From: Membranipora membranacea
Taxonomy: Eukaryota; Bryozoa; Gymnolaemata; Cheilostomatida; Membraniporidae
Length of the DNA: 64,000 nucleotides
Direction of reading: 5' to 3'
Assembly (NCBI GenBank): GCA_914767715.1
Contig: OU612068.1
Span: forward strand, 5,022,001-5,086,000
Part shown: positions 3,062 to 54,849 of the stretch, piece by piece
Numbering within the stretch: the first letter of the stretch is position 1
Layout: the number at the start of each line of letters is the position of its first letter
Translations under genes and position numbers: made by a program
Notes under the pieces: model-generated
What the model was told of the DNA's origin: nothing
Database searches by the model: none
What the model saw: the letters and a program-made list of their open reading frames with translations, nothing else

Positions 3062-3361
3062 TTCATTTTGAATACAGGTCAAGTCTCTTCTTCAAAGTTG
3101 TTCTAATTTCTGGGGTTTGTGCTTCACTGAATTTCATCTTCATTCTTGTGAGTGCCCGAGATTGCATATCATAGACATCAGATTTGCCATACACTGTCTG
3201 AATTCTTGAGCAATCGCACTTGTGAATACCCTGCGCTTAGCATATCCACTTCTCATTGTGGCTAGCATAAGGAATGTGTTTTACTGGTCAAAGACGATGA
3301 GAGTTTCATCTTTTAAAGAGGCTCGCATTGCCATATTGCATTCACTAGAATATGGTCTGAA
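3062..3361 (-). pseudogene. Decayed copy of the last caspase exon (copy 1)
   Basis: The minus strand aligns to the last exon of the NHL-caspase gene (49822-50157) from its 3' end through the region encoding the start of the p10 part. Homology continues into the 3' flank. Frame is not kept through it, and upstream of about 3361 it runs into unrelated sequence before the catalytic QAC motif. It is a duplicated gene tail, not a functioning caspase. Similar tails sit at 21590-21875 and 33640-33870. Confidence 0.7.
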
Positions 3362-3617
3362 GTTTTTTTGGTTCCCAGCCTGTCTTGACAGGCTCAGCAG
3401 ATTTAGCAAGGGGGCTTACCTGTCAAGGCAATGCAAATGCATGCCATTGTATAAATGCAGTCCAACAAGTTCGACAAGTTTCTCAAAACAACCTACTTCC
3501 AATGACATTTGGGTTCAATGCACATGTCAATGTTCTGCCGAAGACTGTCTAACACTGTTTGGCCGATGGCACGATATATGCCATAGCGCTTGTATAGCCT
3601 ATCAACCTTTACACTAG

Positions 3618-21589: not shown

Positions 21590-21875
21590 CCATCTTGCAA
21601 TTTCATTTTGAATCATGACAAGTCCTTTCTTCAAAGTTGATCTAATTTCTGGGGTTTGTGCTTCACCGAATTTCATCTTCATTCTTGTGAGGGGCCCAAG
21701 AAGGCATAACATAGACATCCGACTTGCAATATGCATGTCTGAATTCTTTATCGACCGCACTCATGTAAGCCCTGCGCTTAGCATATCCACCTCTCATTGT
21801 GGCTAGCAAAAGGACTGTGTTTTACCGGTCACGGACGATGTGAGCATCATCTTTTATAGAGGCTCAGCAGCTTTA
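21590..21875 (-). pseudogene. Decayed copy of the last caspase exon (copy 2)
   Basis: Aligns on the minus strand with the 3' part of the last NHL-caspase exon and its downstream flank. Deletions remove the region toward the catalytic cysteine. It lies in the second copy of the 1-4.3 kb segment, so it and 3062-3361 are sister duplicates of one older tail. Confidence 0.7.
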
Positions 21876-33639: not shown

Positions 33640-33870
33640 GCTTTCATTTTGGATACAGGAGAAGTCTTTTCAAGTCGTTGATCTAATTTCCGGTGTGTGT
33701 ACTTCACCGAATTTCATATTTATACGCATGTCTGAATTCTTGAGCAATCTCACTCGTGTAAGACCTGCGCTTAGCATATCCACCTCTCCTTGTGGCTAGC
33801 AACAGGAATGTGTTTGACCGGTCAAGAACGATATGAGTATCATCTTTATAGAGGCTCAGCAGCTTTAGTA
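33640..33870 (-). pseudogene. Decayed copy of the last caspase exon (copy 3)
   Basis: Minus-strand homology to the 3' part of the NHL-caspase last exon, with internal deletions, directly following the remnant of module B gene 2, as the true caspase gene follows module C gene 2. Confidence 0.65.
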
Positions 33871-34778
33871 AGGGAGCTTAACTGTCAAAAGGTCTGTAAA
33901 GACAATGCTGACTAGCCATTGTATAAATGCAGACCAACTTGTTCGACGGGTTTCTCAAGACAACCTACTTCCAATGACAATTAGGCTCAATGTACATATC
34001 AAAGTTCTGCCAGAGAGGGTCTGACTTGTTTTGGCTGATGGCATGATACAGTTCATAGCGCATGTATAGCCTATAGACATTCACCCTAGATTAGATGAAT
34101 ATGTATATATATATATATATATCAATTTTATTGGTTGATCAAGTCACAAATGATCCTCCCTGATATCATCCATAATCACAATTATCATAATACAGCTATA
34201 TAAAGTTGTCCTCTAAGTGACAAAATAAGTGTTGCATTGTGGGAATTGGATTTGTTTCACATGCATCAGAACTTGATTGGTCTGCCTAAATCTTGTGAGC
34301 TGTAACTCATTGGCCAAAGTAAACAATTTACTGGAGCAGTAGCTTTTATAAAAGATAAAATTGACAGTAAAAGAATATTGTGAACACCAAGGCCCAAAGA
34401 TTGGACACATTGACCACTGAGATTTGTAAGCTTATTTATGTCCATCCATCCCCGGCTAGCGGTTTAGTTGATACTGGAGATAACACGTTGTAATGCTGTG
34501 ATTTATCAACAGCAGTTATTTTTCAAACACTGAATAATTGTGTATTTTTATTAGATCCATCAATAAACTTTTTTTAACGACCACTAGGCTGGTAGGCTAT
34601 GACTAACTCTTATTATGAAACTCAACCAATGCAAGGACACCAGGACATAAAGAAAAGTTAACCCAGAATTTCCAACCTGTACTGATATGAGTTTCGTCCT
34701 TAACAGGTAGCTAAAGAGTGAGATTAGAAAACCTTGGAGGTCTTTCAAACAATAACTGTGAAATTTTTTCTTGATTGA
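33871..34778. other. Non-coding spacer with TA microsatellite
   Basis: Repeats 3400-4310 and 21880-22740. (TA)n at 34101-34122. No exon seen. Confidence 0.5.
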
Positions 34779-43258: not shown

Positions 43259-44801
43259 ACGTCGAATACGAAAGGCACAAGACAAGCAATGCCTTGAAAT
43301 CCCACTTACCGGGAAACTGTGTCGAGCAAAACAACGAGCTCACCGGAAAAACAAACAGGTATGGAAGTATCTAAACAAAATTCTCCATAAAAGGCTGAAA
43401 AAGATCAGACGGCAACATGCAGAGGCCAACATAAACAGGATCATGTCTGACACGCGTAAGTGGTGGTCTAATGTCAAATCGCTAACATCACCTCACACAA
43501 ATAGTCAGACAAAGGCGATATTCATCGATAACAAGTGGAAACTCCATCCGAATTTGTGGAAAATCTCAACACGTATTACACTGCAAACAGTGACGGAGCC
43601 TCGCTGGACTTCCCAGAACTCAATAACACCGGGATTCCCAGTAGTGTAGCTATCAGCGATATTATCAGAAATCTCGAATTCATTAACACCAGGAAAGCCA
43701 CACATTCCGCAGATTACCCTCAATGGATTAGCAAACTGAATCCTGAGGCTATATCTATACCGCTACAAAACATCATTCAAACAATGTTAGATACTGGGAA
43801 ATACCCATCACTGTGGAAACGCAGTGAGATAACTCCAATAAACAAGATAGCATCGCCTACACAATACAGCGAATTTAGACCTATTGCGTTACTATTTCAC
43901 TGTAGTAAGATCGCAGAATGGTATATAATACAACCCCTCACCGACAAAGCATCCGATGATACTCAGCACGCATATACCCAAGGTACCGGTGCCATCGACG
44001 CCTTAGTCAACGCTGTCACATCTTGGAAACTTGCGATGGATGACACTAATACTCTCGCCGTCCATGCTCTTTTCAAAGATTTCTCAAAAGCGTTTGACAA
44101 CATGCGTCCAGACATCCTCGCCTCTATCATGCTATCCCAAGGATACAGTGAATCAATTATTGCCCTGTGCGTCAACTACCTAACAAATCGCAGGCAGCAT
44201 GTCGCCCACAAACCCTCTAAGACAACATCTGGTGAAAGAGTGAGTAACATTGGTGTACCCCAGGGCACAAGGTGTGGACCGATACTTTCGAATATTTTTA
44301 TAAAATCACTGCAATCATCCGAAAACATCATAAAGTATGCTGACGACCTAACAATATTCACCACGATTCCAAAATCAGAATCAACCAATATCGCTCGCGG
44401 CCACAGCTCTACCGCCAGTGATACTATATCGAAAGAAGCTACTATGAGAGCAGAGTGGTGCCAAAACAATGGCATGACTCTAAATACATCCAAAACGAAA
44501 CAGATGGCTATGCCATTACGGAATAAGACAACTCTCGAAACCCCAGTCTGCATAAACAACAAAGTCATCGAACGCGTAGACTCATTCAAACTGCTTGGGG
44601 TTAACATAGATGAACACCTCACATTTCACAAGCATGCTGAATCTATAGTTGAGAGAAGCCACGTAAAGGTCCATGCACTACAACTTCTGAAACAGTATGC
44701 AGTTCGAATAATTTTTTAATGTAACTCATGCTCTGATTATGATTGTATTATGTACTTTCTTGAGCGGTGAGATAAAGTCCATATCTATCTATCTATCTAT
44801 C
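43259..44801 (+). mobile_element. 5'-truncated LINE with broken reverse transcriptase and (ATCT)n tail
   Basis: The encoded reverse transcriptase has the family's motifs in order: FRPIALL, FSKAFDN, GVPQGTRCGPILSNIF, YADD (44336-44347) and LLGVNIDEHLTF, as in CR1/Jockey-like non-LTR retrotransposons. The frame shifts near 43530, and the thumb/C-terminal part is missing (LLKQYAVRIIF then stop at 44719), so it is dead. The endonuclease end is absent. The tail is four to five ATCT units (44780-44801). By comparison with module B, the insertion lies between GAGTT (43258) and TGTTTTTATTTTGCAG, about 16 bases before a conserved splice acceptor. Confidence 0.88.
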
Positions 44802-44817: not shown

Positions 44818-47800
44818 CCGTTTGTCTGGTTCTGTGTTGGATTTACACTCGTTGTTATAGCTGCCGAAAGTGACTCAAGTTCAAGGTAAATTATTACAAG
44901 ATTACTCAGCAATAGAGTTAATAATAAACTTAGACACGTCACTATATGAAGCATTGGCATTTACAGTCCATAATCCAGGTTTTTCATTGATATCTTACCC
45001 ATTTTGATCAGATTAGGAGTTTGAGAATTGCAGTTGAGTATGCAGCTTGTCGCCTATAATCAGTTTGATATCAAAGGAAACAGAGGTATCAAATGTGAAA
45101 AGCCACTTCTTTGGCAGGACATTGCAGAGTTTGTATATTATGCAAACTTGTTAAAAGTTCCTGATTGTGATAGCTTAATACCACAAAATCAATTTAAACC
45201 TACTTTCAATCCAATCCTTGTATTGCATCAAGACAAAAAAGCAGCTTGAAATAGATAGAAAATCCAACAATTTCAGTCAGAATAAGAGTCCTGACTTCAC
45301 CCTTTGAGCATGTGCAACAAAACAGGAAAAGAGAGTAAGAGGTTATCTAGGTTATCTTTTAGTGTGAGACTCAATCAGCATGTATAACACAAAGTTACAA
45401 GCCCCGCAAGGGTGGCTGCTGACTAAACAGTATGCTTTCTTCTACAGAGTACTTTGCAAAACGTCAAAACTGCTTATTTATAACACTCCTCTTATTCTGA
45501 CCTAAATCTATCTTGCCGATTTGTGACATGAAAGATACTCAGATACCTATTCAACGGAATATATTTTTATATGGATATCATTTAGCCTGGGCACGACACG
45601 ACAGCCGGCCCAGGCTAGATATCATTAGTAAATGTGTTTTTCATGCTACCAATGAACTAAACCTCTTTTAGTTCATTGATGCTACAGCTGCCCATTCTTG
45701 CACAGTAGAAGAATATGTGTTCCAAAACCTCTGATTCCCTCTAATTTCCATCAAACAGAGAAAAAAACCATAAAATTGATCATGAAAAGTTGTTGTTAAT
45801 GTTGATGGCGGATAATGAGAGGGTTTGGAAAATGAAAATCCCAAGATTTTAGTAGAGTTTTCTCCTCAATTATGTGAAGGGACGACTCTCATCTTGACAG
45901 TACAAAGCCTTGCCTCCATCTGCCTCCATGGTTGAATAGGAAGCCCAATATAATTCCATTTTCGTGTCTTGCTTAAATGCCTTGACCTTTATCATCAATT
46001 CACACTGTTGCATATTATTTTCCTATTCATCTCTATTCCTTAGAATTACTTTGGATAGGACTAAACATCTTGTTGATAACCATATCTTTGATACAATAAT
46101 GGATAAGGATCTGCAAAGCATAGAATCAAGTATAGATACTAGCCAGACAGTTTTCTTTTCACTGGAAAACTATATATACCGCCTGAACACTTCACAGGAA
46201 AATGAAACCTCAGTAGAGTTCATAAGGAATGATATTGAAATCAAAAGCTTTCGTCAAATAAGTACTCGGAGATTTCTTGTTAGTGACAAGGACTCAGTGA
46301 AGGTATACCAGCTTTCCAAGTCTCTGAACAACGGCACAATAGAAGAGACGCTGGTGTGCAGGAAATCCGAATGCTGCCAGGAACCAAACTCCAGATGTAG
46401 GCAGAACAAATCATTTGTTCTTGGACCAACAGCGGTTGACCGCAGATCTTCACCAGAAGCTGCATACTATGTTGATGATTCAACAATATATTTGGTTAAT
46501 CTATCGACAAATGAGTCAGCCACAAGTTTTACATTCAACAGCAGGGGAGAAAGAGCAACAGCTATGGCGTTTAATGACGACTACTCAATAGCTTTTATTT
46601 TTTGTAGTAACACGATGAATGTTTATAAATTCGACTTCCAATCAAAGACAACTACTCCTATTCCTTTTCAAGGAAATCAGATTAGACTATCCATTGAGCA
46701 GACAATTCCCCTCAGTGAAGACCTTTTTCTTTGTCGCACACAGGAACAATTGCTGTTGCTCAATATCAATAAAGGTTCAGGTTAGCTATGTCCATGAAGA
46801 AACAACACATTTTTCCAGCATCACCAGTAATCGTAGCCAAGAACTTCTCAAAGTGAATCAGATAGCAGACATACCAACCAATGGGTACCTACTCGCTGTT
46901 GGTACTAATCAAGAACTGATCTACTTTCAGTATGCTGGCAAGTTTACGCTCTATAGAACATGATTTTATCACTTAAAACCGAAATAATAAAGACGATCAA
47001 CAAGAATGTAAAATGGAAATTATTCTCTCGATGGCTTGGGCAAATACTGAGGGTAAACTTTTGTAATGTAATGTAAAGGCTATGCCTCATTATAACTATG
47101 TATATATGTAAAATTATAATTATACAGATATTACTGATTTTTACAGCCACACAATTATGAGTAACCTGAGTAATCAATCAGTGACATTATCTATCCCCTT
47201 TTTACAGTGACGAATAGCTCAAATGACGCTAGCAGCGTTACACCAGTGACGGGTTCAAATGAGGTGACCAGCCTGGATAGAGGTGAAAAGACAACATCAG
47301 TTTATCGAGATTTAGAAAACCAATTTTTTTGAGCAAGGTGTGGTTGTAGTTTTTAAGCGCAAGTAGTCATATGGTCACATTCATATCAACTGTACATCAT
47401 TCCGTAAAATATTGTGGTCATAGAAGTTGTCCTTGCACGGAAAACGAGCACACAACTCTTGGTTTGTGTTTTCCCCCTAAGTGTAGGCAGGGAGGTGTAG
47501 GTGTAGGTATACCATATATTCCTCCAACTTCAGTATTCTCAAGTGTAACATGGATTACATTTTCTTACCTTCTTTCTCCCCCCCCCCCCCCTACTTAACA
47601 ACCTTATTAGTCTTTAGCCATTTGGCAAGTCATGACGCCAATCATCGATTTTCATTACATTTTCAGATTCCCTTGCTGTTTCCGGATATGCTGCAGCTGT
47701 AGTAGTGTTGGCAGTTGGTGTATCCATAGCTTTCGTTTCTCTGCGGTATAAGAAAAAGAAAAGACGGCTCATCCGGAAATACGCTCACCGCCACAGAAGA

Positions 47801-49411
47801 CGGAGAAGGCCTCCTGTCTCGGATCGTGTAATTGAAGGTGTGTAACTATGGCTTACATATACCCCCGTGAAATCACATATGTTGTTCTCCAGAAAACTGA
47901 ACTGATCCCTGAAGTCATAACATGGGTTCCCAGTAATCATTGCGCATTAAGTTGAATTTGCTGTTGTTATATGTTTTATACTGTGGTATAACGTCACGTC
48001 AGAACCGCCTCTTATAGAGCTTTTATGTCTTCATTCTTACAGATATTCAACTGAGAACATTCAGACAGCAGGATGTACAACAAGGAGAAGATCAGCTGAA
48101 GTCAGAAAGTGTCAGTAAAACCAACTCTACAAGCTCTAGTAAAGAAAACCAGGTCAAGGATAGACCACCGCCGCAGCCTAATCAGCTCAGACAGCCTCCA
48201 GTACATGTGGACACAAACGATTCCTCTGTTGAGCCATATTATGTTAAAGTTTTAAACACACAAACGCCGGTTCAGACACCTCCATATGTTCGACCTAGGC
48301 TATCTCTACTACCCTGTGATCGCAATAAAGATCATGAGCAGAATTCTAGTAAGTTGTCTCTCTCACATTTTCCACAATCCATAATGAAGGCCTGCACAGT
48401 AAATAATCACCTTTATGGTGGCATATCTTGTGATTGTGCTACGTTAAATGCAGATTTCGTTCACTACATATATTACCATGAACCATTCAAAGCCTTTGCA
48501 ACAAATGAAAATAAAAAAGCCAAGAAGGCAAGTCTTAAATTTTCAACTGTAAGCCATTTGGACATAACTCAAAGAAAATGTAAATTATAGTATTGCTTAG
48601 ACAAAAGAAGCTATTGTAGTACAAATTTATGAAAAAATTAAGCAAGCAAGACATTCTTAGATAAAGTTTCGACTCAAACTTTGTCAGAGAGGATGAAAAT
48701 CTGTAGTCACAGTTACTCAGGTACTCAAAGTAACTCTGCTACTCAAAGTCAGGCAACATAACTTTTATTTTGGTCTCCATTTTTACAGATATTCATCCAA
48801 CCATGAGCAGGCGGAAGGATGTAGAACAACAGAGAAAGGATTACCTGAATGAAGAAAGTGTGGGTGAAACTAGAGAAACATCCTGGAGCAAAGAAAACCT
48901 GATTGAAGCTAGAACATCACCGTCGCTGCCAGATCAGCACAGACAGCCTCGGGTACACAAGCACTCAAACGATTCCTCTGTTGAGCCATACTATGTGGAA
49001 GTTTTGGATCATATAGATAGGTTAACAAACACACAAACATTGGTTACAAAGCCTCCTTATGTTCGGCCTAGGTTATGTCTCCCGCATCGTGAACTCAGCT
49101 CAGAGATTTTAGATCTCAAACAGCACTATAGTAAGTTCTCTCCTCCGAATTCTCCTGGGATGCGTAAAGCTGGCTCTTGCAGTAAGAAATCACCTTATAG
49201 CGACATTGTGCGTGTTTCCCCTGAGCATAGTGCAGACTACGATCACTATTCCTACGCCCACAAACAACCAAAAGCCTCAGACACGAAAGGAAACCACGAA
49301 GACAACAATCAAAACATCTCTAATCCACAACCAGAAATTGTTTTTACCATTACTTCTGAGAAAACAGAAATTAAAGTGTGGCCAAAACAAAAGAAAGAAA
49401 CACTCAATTAA
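44818..49411 (+). pseudogene. Receptor gene 2 of module C, likely non-functional
   Basis: Exons correspond one to one with the intact gene at 8853-4846: 44818-44885 (signal-like), 46044-46937 (ectodomain), 47208-47303, 47667-47837 (TM, AVVVLAVGVSIAFVSL then KKKKRR), 48043-48348 and 48789-49411 (tail, both with EPYYV and PPYVRPRL). Three defects: one extra base near 46780 puts a TAG after NINKGSG although the sequence beyond stays conserved in another frame; the ectodomain donor is GC (TGCTG|GCAAGT); and the next exon has lost its donor (GTTG|GTGAGA in module A, GTTTATCGAGA here). The tail exons remain open and similar, so decay is recent, or alternative transcripts preserve them. A sequencing error could explain the frameshift alone but not the lost donor. 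Confidence 0.7.
47578..47591. repeat. Poly-C run of 14
   Basis: Fourteen consecutive C in the intron before the TM exon. Comparable runs lie at 32076-32085 and 58622-58633. Confidence 0.9.
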
Positions 49412-49821: not shown

Positions 49822-52305
49822 TCATTTTGGATAAAGGACAAGTCTTTTCTTCAAAGTTGATCTAATTTCGGGTGTTTGTGCTTCACCAAATTTCATATTC
49901 ATTCTTGTGAGTGCCCGAGAGTGCATGTCATAGACATCAGACTTGCCATCCGCATGTCTGAATTCTTCAGCGATCGCACTTGTGTAAGCCCTGCGCTTAG
50001 CATATCCACCTCTCATGGTGGCTAGCAACAGGACCGTGTGCGACCTGTCAAGGACGATGTGGGTTTCATCTTTTGGAGAGGCACGCATTGCCATATCGCA
50101 TTCTCTAGAATAAGGTCTGAATTCCTCTGTTTGTTGACAAGCTTGCACCAATATTACCTGAGGAAAAGAAGTTGAGTAGGTATTATGAGCAAATTTTACC
50201 ATTACCGACTTTCATTGCACATTAATTTATTAATTGAGGTTTTCTACAAATTGAATAACCTAATCTTGTAAGAGCAAAGTATTCTCAACAAAATGTAGAG
50301 AGTTTACATACTCTTACCAGAGGTATATGTGCAGGAATTGCTCGTGAAAATTTGAGCAAAATGTCATTTATTACTATAGAGCCATCGACATCTTCACACT
50401 TCAGCAAGCCGGCGTACCCATGTGACATAATGCACACCACTAGTAGTGAGCAATCTTCGATCGATCTCAGCCCATCATCGATAAGTTTGCTCAGTGAAAA
50501 TTTGGTTGTCCACATCTCCTGCATCACCTGACACCCAATTGCTTTTAGACCAATGTGAAGGTCATCGGCTTCTTGGGTGGCTCCATCTCGAGATGTCGGA
50601 TTGTACAGAATGAGTCCATGTCGCTGGGTCTTACACTCATAAACTAACTCTTCTGAGGTACCTACAAGTTAAACCACGGCATTAGTCAAATCTGTAACTA
50701 TACTAGTAAGACTTCAATCCAATTGGTTGCACTGCATTTCAAGTTGCTCCCATTCTGCTGGTAAGGGGGCACGACTCCAAATGCAGACAAACTGACTCCA
50801 GGGAGTTTGGGACCGAAACTCCCTGCTGACTCCAACTTGCATGGAGTTAGAGTTGTTCTAAACAACCTGGTTTAAGTGAAACTATGGTTTGTTTCTTATT
50901 TGATTGACCCTTCCAGTTGCGCTTCATAGAACAGGCCAACTCCAAAACTTTGGAGAGAGCTGTTTGGCGTTAGTTGTTTAATGACATGATGGTCATTTAA
51001 GAAGTTAGTTTTCAGATGTAAAACTTTCTTTTTCGTTGTTAAAAATTTATTGAAGTGATGACAAACCTCCATTCACACTCCATATCCGCTGAAGCAGTGC
51101 CAGGAGACAAATTGCTACTACTGAAAGGACGAAGTAATACCAAGGTGTGCTTGGGCTATTCTCAAGTTCGATTCCAGCTTCTTTATCCAACTGAGTGTCG
51201 TTTTGCACGACATCTTCTTCTACAAAGAAGAATGAAGTGGATCAAATTAATTGGTTATGAAATGAACACAATTACAAAAGAAATGTGTGTTCTGGAAATG
51301 TAATGAGTAAATGAATACCTTTAAAAAACGAGCTTTTGAATGGTTGAAAACACAGAAGCTTTGATATGGAGGTACTTACCACTGATGGTTCTGATAGCAC
51401 CAGATTCACCTATGTATATTGTTCCATTGATCAAGCATAATGACTGCGGATACCAAAGCTGGCAGGTGGACAACTCGCCATCTATGTGTCCTCTATGGCC
51501 AGAGCATTTAGAGATTCCTGACTTGCTGGTGAGATTTAATACCCTGAGTAGGTGATTGTAGCTATCAGCAACTATCAGCACGTCGTTACTGATGAGTGTC
51601 AGTTCTTTAGGGTGATAAAATTGAATTTCATCAAACAAATTATCTTGAAACCCAGCCGACGATGAGCCTGTTACTTGGGATAGGCTCTTAGTTTTGTAGT
51701 CATACTTTGTGACACCATGTCGGAAAGTGAGATAGATATCTCCGGTATTGTTCTCCTGTAACATACCTTGATATGTTTCTGTGCTTGCGTCGTTCTTGTA
51801 AAGGGTCATCACAACCCTCGTTTTTATATTAATAGTGCGCAAGGCTCGATTTCCACGATCCGTGACTATCAATGTTGTGAGGTCTTTCACATCTGTGATG
51901 ATAGACCTTGGACTACTGAATAAAGATGCATTGCCGTCAGCATAACCTCCGCTTGTACACACTCCTGCATACAATTTGGTTTGAATAGTTGTTCTACTCA
52001 AAGTACGAATGCAGTGATTCCTTGTATCAAGGACAATAATCTTTGAAGGAAGCAGCTGATGAAATCCAGCAATTATATTGAATCTTGCCTCTGTACCCAC
52101 GCCTTCGACATAACCGTCTTCTAATGAGGACCCAGCGATGGTATTCACAGACTTGTCATGCACATTGATTGTCTTGAGTGAGTGTTGATCAGCAAATAGG
52201 ATGTTTCCGGTCTCATACAAATCCGCCTCCATGTGATAAACAATTCCATCTGTATTGATAAGTGTCGATATTTCATGATTGTGGGTTGGTTTTCTGTTTT
52301 TCCCA
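49822..52305 (-). CDS. Transmembrane NHL-propeller caspase
   Basis: Four exons join exactly in phase: 52305-51380, 51219-51067, 50661-50318 and 50157-49822, about 585 residues. Exon 1 (308 codons) is an NHL beta-propeller with blades VLDTRNHCIRTLSR, VTDRGNRALRTINI and VADSYNHLLRVLNL, plus N-glycosylation sites. Exon 2 encodes one helix, YYFVLSVVAICLLALL, preceded by an acidic linker and followed by QRIW. Exons 3-4 are a caspase domain: RHGLILYN opening strand, an SR before the alpha-1 region, LLVVCIMSHGYAG with the catalytic His, IPLVILVQACQQ with the catalytic Cys split by the last intron, and a p10 part, LLATMRGGYAKRR. The QACxG glycine is Gln here. By family knowledge it should be a cysteine protease cutting after Asp, tethered on the cytosolic face under an extracellular sensor; that role is inferred. 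Exon 1 starts with one base of a codon, so at least one 5' exon is missing. A signal-like exon at 52981-53100 (CIPYGIILILASSCVHAV, GTAAGT donor) is the obvious candidate, but its phase does not fit directly. The gene is tail to tail with module C gene 2, 410 bases between stops. Confidence 0.85.
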
Positions 52306-52980
52306 CTATAAGCAAGAAGATCTTAAATAATTTACATAAACATACTATGATTGGGTTATAGGGGACTCCATTTACAATTATGGTTGGGTTTTAGGGGACT
52401 TTTAGGGATTGTGAACATTTAACGATTCTGTACTAATTTTTCAAAAAAAGTGATCTTATTTGGAACATACTGGATATTAACTGATCATACTATATACACA
52501 AAACGATGTAAAATGAACCTCTATTTCCTGAGTTGGGACGAAAGCTTACGCTGCGCATGTCAACAGGGCTTATTCACAGGTTTCAACAATCAATTAGACC
52601 AAGGAGTAAAAGACATTTACTCCTTGATAGACATACCTTGTTTCACAAATGAATGCTACTCCAATAAAAAGACTGAGAAGTAAACACGATACCTTTTCCT
52701 ACAACAACGATTGACACTTGAGAAGATTCCTATCCGAGTGACTGTGTCAGAAATGAAGTGCGCAATTCAACAACAGTCTATGGGTAACACCAGTAGCCTA
52801 CTTAATATATCTTGGTAGCACTCATTAGTGTAACTGTAATCTACTTCATGAATGAACTGTGGAAGTTGTATGTTGTGAGTTAAGAGGGTTCAGTGAACTG
52901 GTTGGTGACGTGTAATTGCAGCAGCAATTTGTAACTATGAGATCAAAATTAGTAGATGAGATGTTGTATGAAAAACTTAC

Positions 52981-53100
52981 CATCATGGTCAGTCAATACC
53001 CTGTAGTCATAATGAATTACCGCATGAACGCAACTACTAGCAAGGATTAGTATTATACCGTATGGGATGCAACTTGCAGTAACAAATCCTGCGTTGAACG
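52981..53100 (-). CDS. Candidate signal-peptide exon of the NHL-caspase gene
   Basis: The minus strand reads GFVTASCIPYGIILILASS then CVHAVIHYDYRVLTDHD and a good donor (GATG|GTAAGT). The hydrophobic core and small residues before VIHYD look like a secretory signal. No in-frame ATG follows the upstream TGA, and the exon ends in phase 1 while the NHL exon needs phase 2. Either a small exon lies between them or this exon is not used as drawn. Confidence 0.35.
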
Positions 53101-54849
53101 GTTTTATGAACAGCTTAGATAATAACCATCATTCTAAGCATAGACAAAACGCACATGTCTATTATTATATTATTATATGGTCCTAAGTCACATCTGTCAT
53201 ACATCACTGAGCATGATTTTATCAGCTGTGGTTGAAGTTATGTTATCAAAGCCACCTAAGTTTCGTCATACTTGCGGTCAAATCTTAACAACAATAATAT
53301 TCGAAGCTAAAATTACGTCGGAAGCTAAACAAAATTTCATGATTATCACAACAACAGATGAATCATAGCTGCGTGAATCGAGAAAAAATAGATGAAACGC
53401 ACACTATGTTAGTAGAAATCCCTTGTCATAAAATTGTAATATAGAATGTTCAAATAAAAGCTCAGCTTTTATATAGCGCGCGTGTGAGGTTAGAGATGTG
53501 CTTCAGCTCTTCAACAGGGAAACTCAAATAAGATGATCAGTATAGGATAGGGCTTTATACTTATAGCGCCCGCCCCTACGCCCGTTCACAATTTGTAATT
53601 TTTACCTATTATTTCGGTGAACAATTCTTCTTTCCAGCAAGTCTTTCCAACAGACTACCTTCGCCTACATTGCTGGCATAATTCAATTCTATGGAAATAT
53701 GGCATGCGTTGCAGGGCATTTATATAATACATAATAATAGGGGCTAGACGAGATCAAGTATGGTTCAATTTGCCTGCAATTGGATTTTATAGCTGTAAAA
53801 TTAGAACAACTGGAATGGGAATGTGTGCAAATTGGATCACACTTGATCTAGGCTAGCCTGTCAGTCATTGTACGCATGTATAGCATGTCAAAGAGTATCA
53901 TTCGACCCTAGAGGAGTAAAGAATTCACAGGAGGAAAAGTTCACAATGTTTGAAACAGTGAATTGTTGTTGCTAGCGTTTACAAACCCTCTCAATATTAT
54001 ATAAGCCCCCAGTTGTTGCAAGCTAACATTACATCATCATACCCAAATTAGCTAAATAAAATGTAGCTAAAATTTAGTCCTCTAGAGTATCCTACAACAA
54101 GTCTTGACTAACCCTTTGACAGGCTTTCTTGCTTCAAACAGCCTTTTGTGTGTATTTTGCTATCATCATACTATCAACTCAAAACCACGATACCAAACAT
54201 TTGCAATATCCCTCCGCTACACAGAGGATACAAACTTGTTCTACAGGTAAAGGGCATCAGCCTTTTATATGGATCGTTCTTTGGTGCAAAACCAGGAACT
54301 ATTTCTTGCAAACAATGGGAATGAAAGATATGAGATTCTTTGTGATTTGGTTTTCAGTAAAAATAAAAGTTAACTGAGTAAAAATGGTTTAATTGTTTTG
54401 TCCACATTAAGCAATACTGGATCTACCCCAAATTTTGTAGTTTTTAGGGTAGCTCTGACTGTATATGAGACTAACTAAATAAACATGTCAAAAAAAGGGG
54501 ATAATTTCTATATCATTGTAGGTCAGAGGTAAAAGGCTACAAGGAAAGCACAGGCAACAACAAACAAATACTAGATTGACAAACATTGATAATGACATGG
54601 AAACTGAAAAAAAAATAGAACTTTCATGTATTTGGAAAATATTGAGTCTTGCACTTATAACGTCAAAGCCTTTCCCCAAAACATCCCTGGATAGTTACCT
54701 CAACCCTCAACCCTGGCTATTTACATCAAATGGGTGAATATTAGTTGGTGCTGGCAAATTGTAATGTTTTGTCACCAAAAAGCATGAATGGCATGGAAAT
54801 TTTAGTCTAAAAAGTTTAAGCAGTTAAACTCAGAGATAGATATCATATA
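53101..54849. other. Intergenic region between NHL-caspase 5' side and MMUT 3' end
   Basis: No exon is supported. An inverted-repeat element lies at 53755-53862 (GATCAAGTATGGTTCAATTT with AAATTGGATCACACTTGATC), of the same family as 16631-16747. The promoter of the caspase gene should be here, but I recognise no element in it. Confidence 0.5.

Follow-up and report, generated by a model that had tools for sequence, protein, structure and literature searches.

A candidate receptor-caspase with an NHL propeller ectodomain in the bryozoan Membranipora membranacea

Can a caspase form the inside part of an animal membrane receptor, and does the bryozoan Membranipora membranacea encode a protein of this kind? 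The question is raised by a stretch of 64,000 nucleotides of contig OU612068.1 (assembly GCA_914767715.1, positions 5,022,001 to 5,086,000), hereafter called the window, to which all positions below refer unless another contig is named. On its minus strand, a first-pass annotation had described a gene in which a caspase is fused to an extracellular NHL propeller through one transmembrane helix. In the current study the sequence partly confirmed this observation, and a single NHL-transmembrane-caspase chain, an interpretation itself partly supported, would be the reading that suits the locus best.

Four exons (A to D, Table 1) make up the gene model, in which the spliced frame runs unbroken for 585 amino acid (aa) residues and a stop codon, with the 5′ end missing. 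The matching exon phases reported in the first-pass annotation were upheld, as phases of 1, 1 and 0 at the A/B, B/C and C/D junctions are all compatible and leave a frame free of stops. The four acceptors hold 8 to 12 pyrimidines per 13 scored positions, while the donors of exons A, B and C agree with the consensus at 7/9, 6/9 and 7/9 positions, respectively. The description of the four exons as NHL blades had to be revised, since the propeller is confined to one exon, the others encoding the membrane helix, the caspase p20, and the end of p20 followed by p10. Skipping of exon B would maintain the frame and yield a helix-less form.

The membrane helix and the caspase p20/p10 with its His and Cys motifs were in turn recovered, the caspase being of the animal type and the joined protein matching Pfam Peptidase_C14 (PF00656) with an expectation value (E) of 4.8e-11 over positions 17–232 of the 233 in the profile. 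Exon C alone matches positions 17–91 (0.013) and exon D alone positions 121–232 (3.7e-6), so that the two exons encode successive parts of the profile. Residues R384, H440, Q479, C481 and R529 are invariant among five aligned caspases and likewise aligned with solved caspases, by which the catalytic His and Cys, the oxyanion Gln context and the two S1 Arg residues of the Asp pocket are all accounted for. The pentapeptide departs from the QACXG form, reading QACQQ as it does in the ankyrin-caspase relatives L071 and L072 described below. A profile of five caspases matches caspase-8 at 9.8e-12. No Pfam match to CARD, DED or TNFR was obtained in the 585 aa at E up to 1, and an NCBIfam search returned no match.

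With regard to exon A, the joined protein matches Pfam NHL at 2.4e-9, and the best matches of the exon by sequence among solved structures (PDB) are SOQ1 (5.7e-13) and NHLRC2 (7e-10), which a 16-member family profile matches at 1.4e-24 and 1.5e-21, respectively. The likeness to these propellers is one of sequence, their molecule names show no caspase and, to our knowledge, neither protein has a caspase domain. Only one of the six blades exceeds the Pfam cut-off singly. When each blade was left out in turn and compared with 500 shuffles, blades 1, 2, 3 and 5 were supported (4, 2, 2 and 0 shuffles as good), blade 6 was weak (40) and blade 4 was unsupported (266). Exon A can thus be described as an NHL-repeat propeller in which blades 4 and 6 are weak.

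The membrane helix encoded by exon B spans approximately residues 336–353 of the partial protein, with a Kyte-Doolittle average of 2.13 over 19 residues against 1.71 for the next best segment elsewhere. It is preceded by an acidic stalk and followed by a basic RIW, as is fitting for a single helix between an ectodomain and an inside part, and approximately 20 residues separate it from the caspase fold. Exons that are open, fit in phase, have fair splice sites and encode a membrane helix turned up in 0/1000 shuffles and in 2/344 other segments of the window. By this comparison, whose thresholds were chosen after the exon had been seen, exon B exceeds chance expectation.

The genome (339 Mb, 18 contigs) was scanned for relatives of both halves. 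Exon A gave at least 130 matches at no fewer than 128 places including the window (at least 127 others), 32–45% identical apart from the match to itself, and in 10 of the 128 listed rows a stop inside the exon was noted by eye. Thirty of these loci (L041–L069 and the window) were compared in detail. A phase-1 donor is located at the same position in 26/30, the window included, while an acceptor-like site in the phase of exon A was counted by eye, without a control, in 29/30. In nine of the thirty, inspection by eye showed a downstream exon for a helix, related among these loci, that contains VAYI(V/I) and ends in basic residues (L042, L044, L045, L051, L052, L058, L060, L062 and L064). Among nine relatives checked, four (L044, L045, L051 and L060) possess a 17-codon hydrophobic ATG exon that ends in phase 2. 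The candidates for a first exon are longer in L041 and L063, and none that convinced was seen in L049, L050 or L066. The family plan therefore looks like a signal peptide, NHL, stalk, membrane helix and tail, while other members such as L047, L059, L061 and L069 continue, by eye, into other extracellular-looking parts. Like the window gene, the members have a single NHL exon (37–44% identical among 15 aligned), and their alignment shares 22 invariant columns with exon A, four Cys among them. Unlike the window gene, they bear other tails where these are visible by eye, for example with HYYSEP/HYYSYP in L050, L051 and L056. Single-exon NHL ectodomains were also observed in clusters, such as those on contig C8 at 19.8–21.6 Mb and contig C7 at 4.5–4.7 Mb, several of them having tails with HYYSEP-like tyrosine motifs.

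The caspase exons gave at least 158 matches, the best places outside the window being 57–64% identical and mostly on contig C3, where C3:24697769 is 64% identical to exon C. Four loci among the best places were inspected (L071–L074). In L071 and L072 an ankyrin exon lies upstream (Pfam Ank_2, 1.4e-13 and 4e-8); none was seen in the stretches taken for L073 and L074, and the p10 of L073 looks interrupted. By eye, L071, L072 and L074 each offer an ACAG through which splicing into the p20 exon would be in phase 1. The ankyrin-caspases L071 and L072 provide the closest caspase exons examined (57–66% identical), and the intron before QAC is placed, as read from the sequence, as in the window in both of them and in the more distant L038. 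In contrast to the window gene they have an ankyrin part upstream, with no NHL found in the stretches taken. The window gene has no ankyrin exon upstream of its p20, and the best ankyrin match in the window has an E of 2.8, which leaves the membrane exon as the visible upstream coding partner of the caspase. Since the NHL exon shares its splice position and phase with one family and the caspase exons resemble those of ankyrin-caspases, the gene appears to combine, by shuffling, parts of two families that have each expanded.

Silent substitutions greatly outnumber amino-acid-changing ones in both halves. For the caspase exons against L071, L072 and L074, the proportion of differences at silent sites (pS) is 0.72–0.83, indicating saturation, and that at amino-acid-changing sites (pN) is 0.22–0.30; for the NHL exon against four relatives the values are 0.76–0.82 and 0.39–0.41. 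As these rates mix both lineages, they show that the families are constrained but are no proof of a present function of the window copy.

The caspase expansion as a whole is strong, with at least 145 PF00656 matches, for example on contigs C3 (24.4–24.8 Mb), C9 (2.0–2.5 Mb) and C5 (4.1–7.6 Mb), ankyrin-caspases included; the figure is a lower bound because the search missed the caspase of the window itself. One caspase, L008, lacks a QAC motif. In the window, the last caspase exon also occurs as broken copies at 3066–3412, 21614–21863 and 33676–33937 (minus strand), two of them with a stop at the same codon. Beyond the genome, seven viral-contig loci match exon D (42–46% over 41–47 residues, with a common stretch ATMRGGYAK); these were taken as chance, and the one inspected (L002) is a long phage frame in which no caspase motif was seen. 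No relative of the whole protein was found in the viral or genome contig collections (viruses and prokaryotes), nor one of exon A in the viral contig collection.

At least one further 5′ exon is required, given the phase-2 start of exon A and the lack of an in-frame start Met upstream of it. Two weak candidates are listed in Table 1. A hydrophobic exon near 53085–52977 had looked by eye like a signal exon, but its exit in phase 1 disagrees with the phase-2 start of exon A and with the acceptor-like sites counted in that phase at 29/30 family loci, and it was set aside.

Based on these findings, we consider it reasonably probable that the locus encodes a type I membrane receptor-caspase, built from an NHL receptor and caspase exons and activated by ligand-driven clustering. 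A number of observations weigh against this proposal. No convincing signal-peptide exon was found within the window, exon B has no relative elsewhere in the genome, and a look at all forward frames over 1.5 kb finds a helix-like segment of some kind at 22/30 NHL loci, a count made without a control. All five sequons precede the helix, a distribution that carries no information, as 58% of shuffles likewise leave the caspase half without any. Taken singly, the caspase sequence has weak matches to solved caspases (best 0.027), and a single-sequence AlphaFold model of exon A alone was unusable (pLDDT 32.9). The donor of exon B is weak, and if intron B is read through, the chain stops a few residues past the helix (...NGGLSSLQ). 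Between exons A and C there are 11 ATG-to-GT candidates in phase 1, three of them short ATG exons with donors at 6/9, equal to that of exon B, so that the caspase may have a soluble start of its own. Finally, among the 128 NHL and 150 caspase places listed, the window alone has a same-strand NHL/caspase pair within 20 kb, a comparison based on the match list of the caspase subfamily, with the PF00656 list compared by eye.

The donor, the early stop past the helix, the ATG exons and the singular pairing, together with an AATAAA at 51051 and the stranded, broken copies of exon D in the window, would suit two neighbouring units, namely an NHL membrane receptor with a very short tail and caspase exons that either begin from a separate small exon or were left stranded from an ankyrin-caspase gene. 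This arrangement appears rather unlikely to us, as neither caspase exon is interrupted, the active site is preserved, silent sites are saturated and protein changes are few, in contrast to the broken copies; moreover, no ankyrin exon lies nearby, the first Met of the caspase part (residue 406) falls within the p20 fold, and the phases fit throughout. The missing first exon and the broken last-exon copies could also be taken as signs of decay, the locus then being a former receptor-caspase whose signal exon was lost or damaged and whose product was discontinued. Recent loss is compatible with substitution rates that combine both lineages, whereas 585 codons without a stop or frameshift and the retention of the catalytic residues make such decay quite improbable.

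Further NHL-caspase fusions may exist in the genome. A second one was considered at C2:34584352 (L043/L070), where an in-between exon was first read as a degenerate p20; that reading of the exon was rejected, since it has no Pfam caspase match and a p20 profile score below that of shuffles. L070 itself (C2:34583800–34590800) holds an NHL-transmembrane gene followed approximately 2 kb downstream, on the same strand, by one or more caspase exons of another subfamily, and was not counted as a fusion.

Table 1. Exons of the candidate receptor-caspase, possible first exons and neighbouring features (window positions)
Feature	Position	Strand	Description
Exon A	51380..52305	-	Ectodomain, an NHL beta-propeller of approximately six blades; phase 2 at the acceptor, phase 1 at the donor
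Exon B	51067..51219	-	Acidic stalk and single membrane helix; phase 1-1, 153 nucleotides
Exon C	50318..50661	-	Caspase p20; S1 Arg R384, catalytic His H440 (MSHG)
Exon D	49822..50157	-	Remainder of p20, including the catalytic Cys C481 (QACQQ), linker D495/D504/D511, p10 with R529, stop codon
Weak signal-peptide exon candidate	54572..54627	-	18 codons, phase 2, donor 5/9; not established
Weak first-exon candidate	52491..52558	-	22 codons, phase 2, donor 5/9; not established
Convergent neighbour gene	45940-49411	+	Membrane helix with very basic end at 47636-47842
Inverted copy of convergent neighbour	8252-4767	-	82% identical over 3.6 kb
Presumed methylmalonyl-CoA mutase exons	63460-54853	-	
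Reverse transcriptase frame	43532-44716	+	RVT_1, 5.4e-21

Concerning the surroundings of the gene, the convergent neighbour has an ectodomain with sub-threshold beta-propeller matches and, past its membrane helix, two tail exons with EPYYV motifs. The exons that we take to be those of a methylmalonyl-CoA mutase give B12-binding matches in two pieces, under the Pfam cut-off, and the reverse transcriptase frame is probably a retrotransposon.

Caspases are activated by induced proximity. The exons of the proposed receptor-caspase, if spliced into one mRNA, would specify a type I order of a signal peptide, the NHL propeller outside, one membrane helix, approximately 20 residues and an inside caspase that lacks CARD, DED and ankyrin parts; such a gene would have arisen when a member of the large NHL membrane-receptor family acquired caspase exons of the ankyrin-caspase kind. 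The propeller would bind a ligand, or else a partner carried by another cell or by a microbe, and the chains would thereby be gathered, upon which the caspase domains could dimerise at the membrane, cleave themselves at the linker Asp residues D495, D504 or D511 and then cleave substrates, the simplest outcomes being cell death or local signalling by cleavage. Because no pro-domain is present in the part found and the spacing is so short, ligand-driven dimerisation would be the simplest mechanism, and the notion that a ligand outside clusters the protease inside, put forward in the first-pass annotation, is sensible by analogy.

The accompanying statement that no animal caspase with an ectodomain was known does not hold, as a predicted transmembrane TNFR-caspase of amphioxus (JGI model Brafl1_82667), its architecture reported as cDNA-validated, was published in Genome Biol in 2008 and, in the accessible text, is presented as a shortcut from signal to cell death, with LRR-caspases (leucine-rich repeat) likewise described (PMC2575513). 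Compared by description, the amphioxus protein has a TNFR rather than an NHL ectodomain, and the fusion caspases of that account carry QACXG where QACQQ is found here (PMC2575513). Shuffled immune genes are described in sponges and other animals, and the accessible portions of these papers contain no NHL-transmembrane-caspase architecture (PMC8195603, PMC12909245, PMC8242945). No paper pairing a caspase with NHL repeats was found in the open PMC literature, subscription papers and preprints being outside the search. The NHL type would therefore be new, while the principle of a receptor-caspase is already known from amphioxus.

It is conceivable, albeit as a decidedly long shot, that the NHL ectodomains serve as a surface-recognition repertoire, directed at microbes or at self and non-self, of which one member has obtained its own caspase for adaptor-free proteolysis and killing; this would be an origin of receptor-caspases separate from that of the TNFR type in amphioxus. 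Provided that the chain is produced, it would unite recognition outside and proteolysis inside in one molecule and offer a minimal natural test of adaptor-free caspase activation by induced proximity. Alongside the TNFR-caspase of amphioxus, it would suggest that such shortcuts evolved repeatedly in animals, in this case through the shuffling of exons between two families that have expanded, of which the NHL receptor family is in itself a large repertoire.
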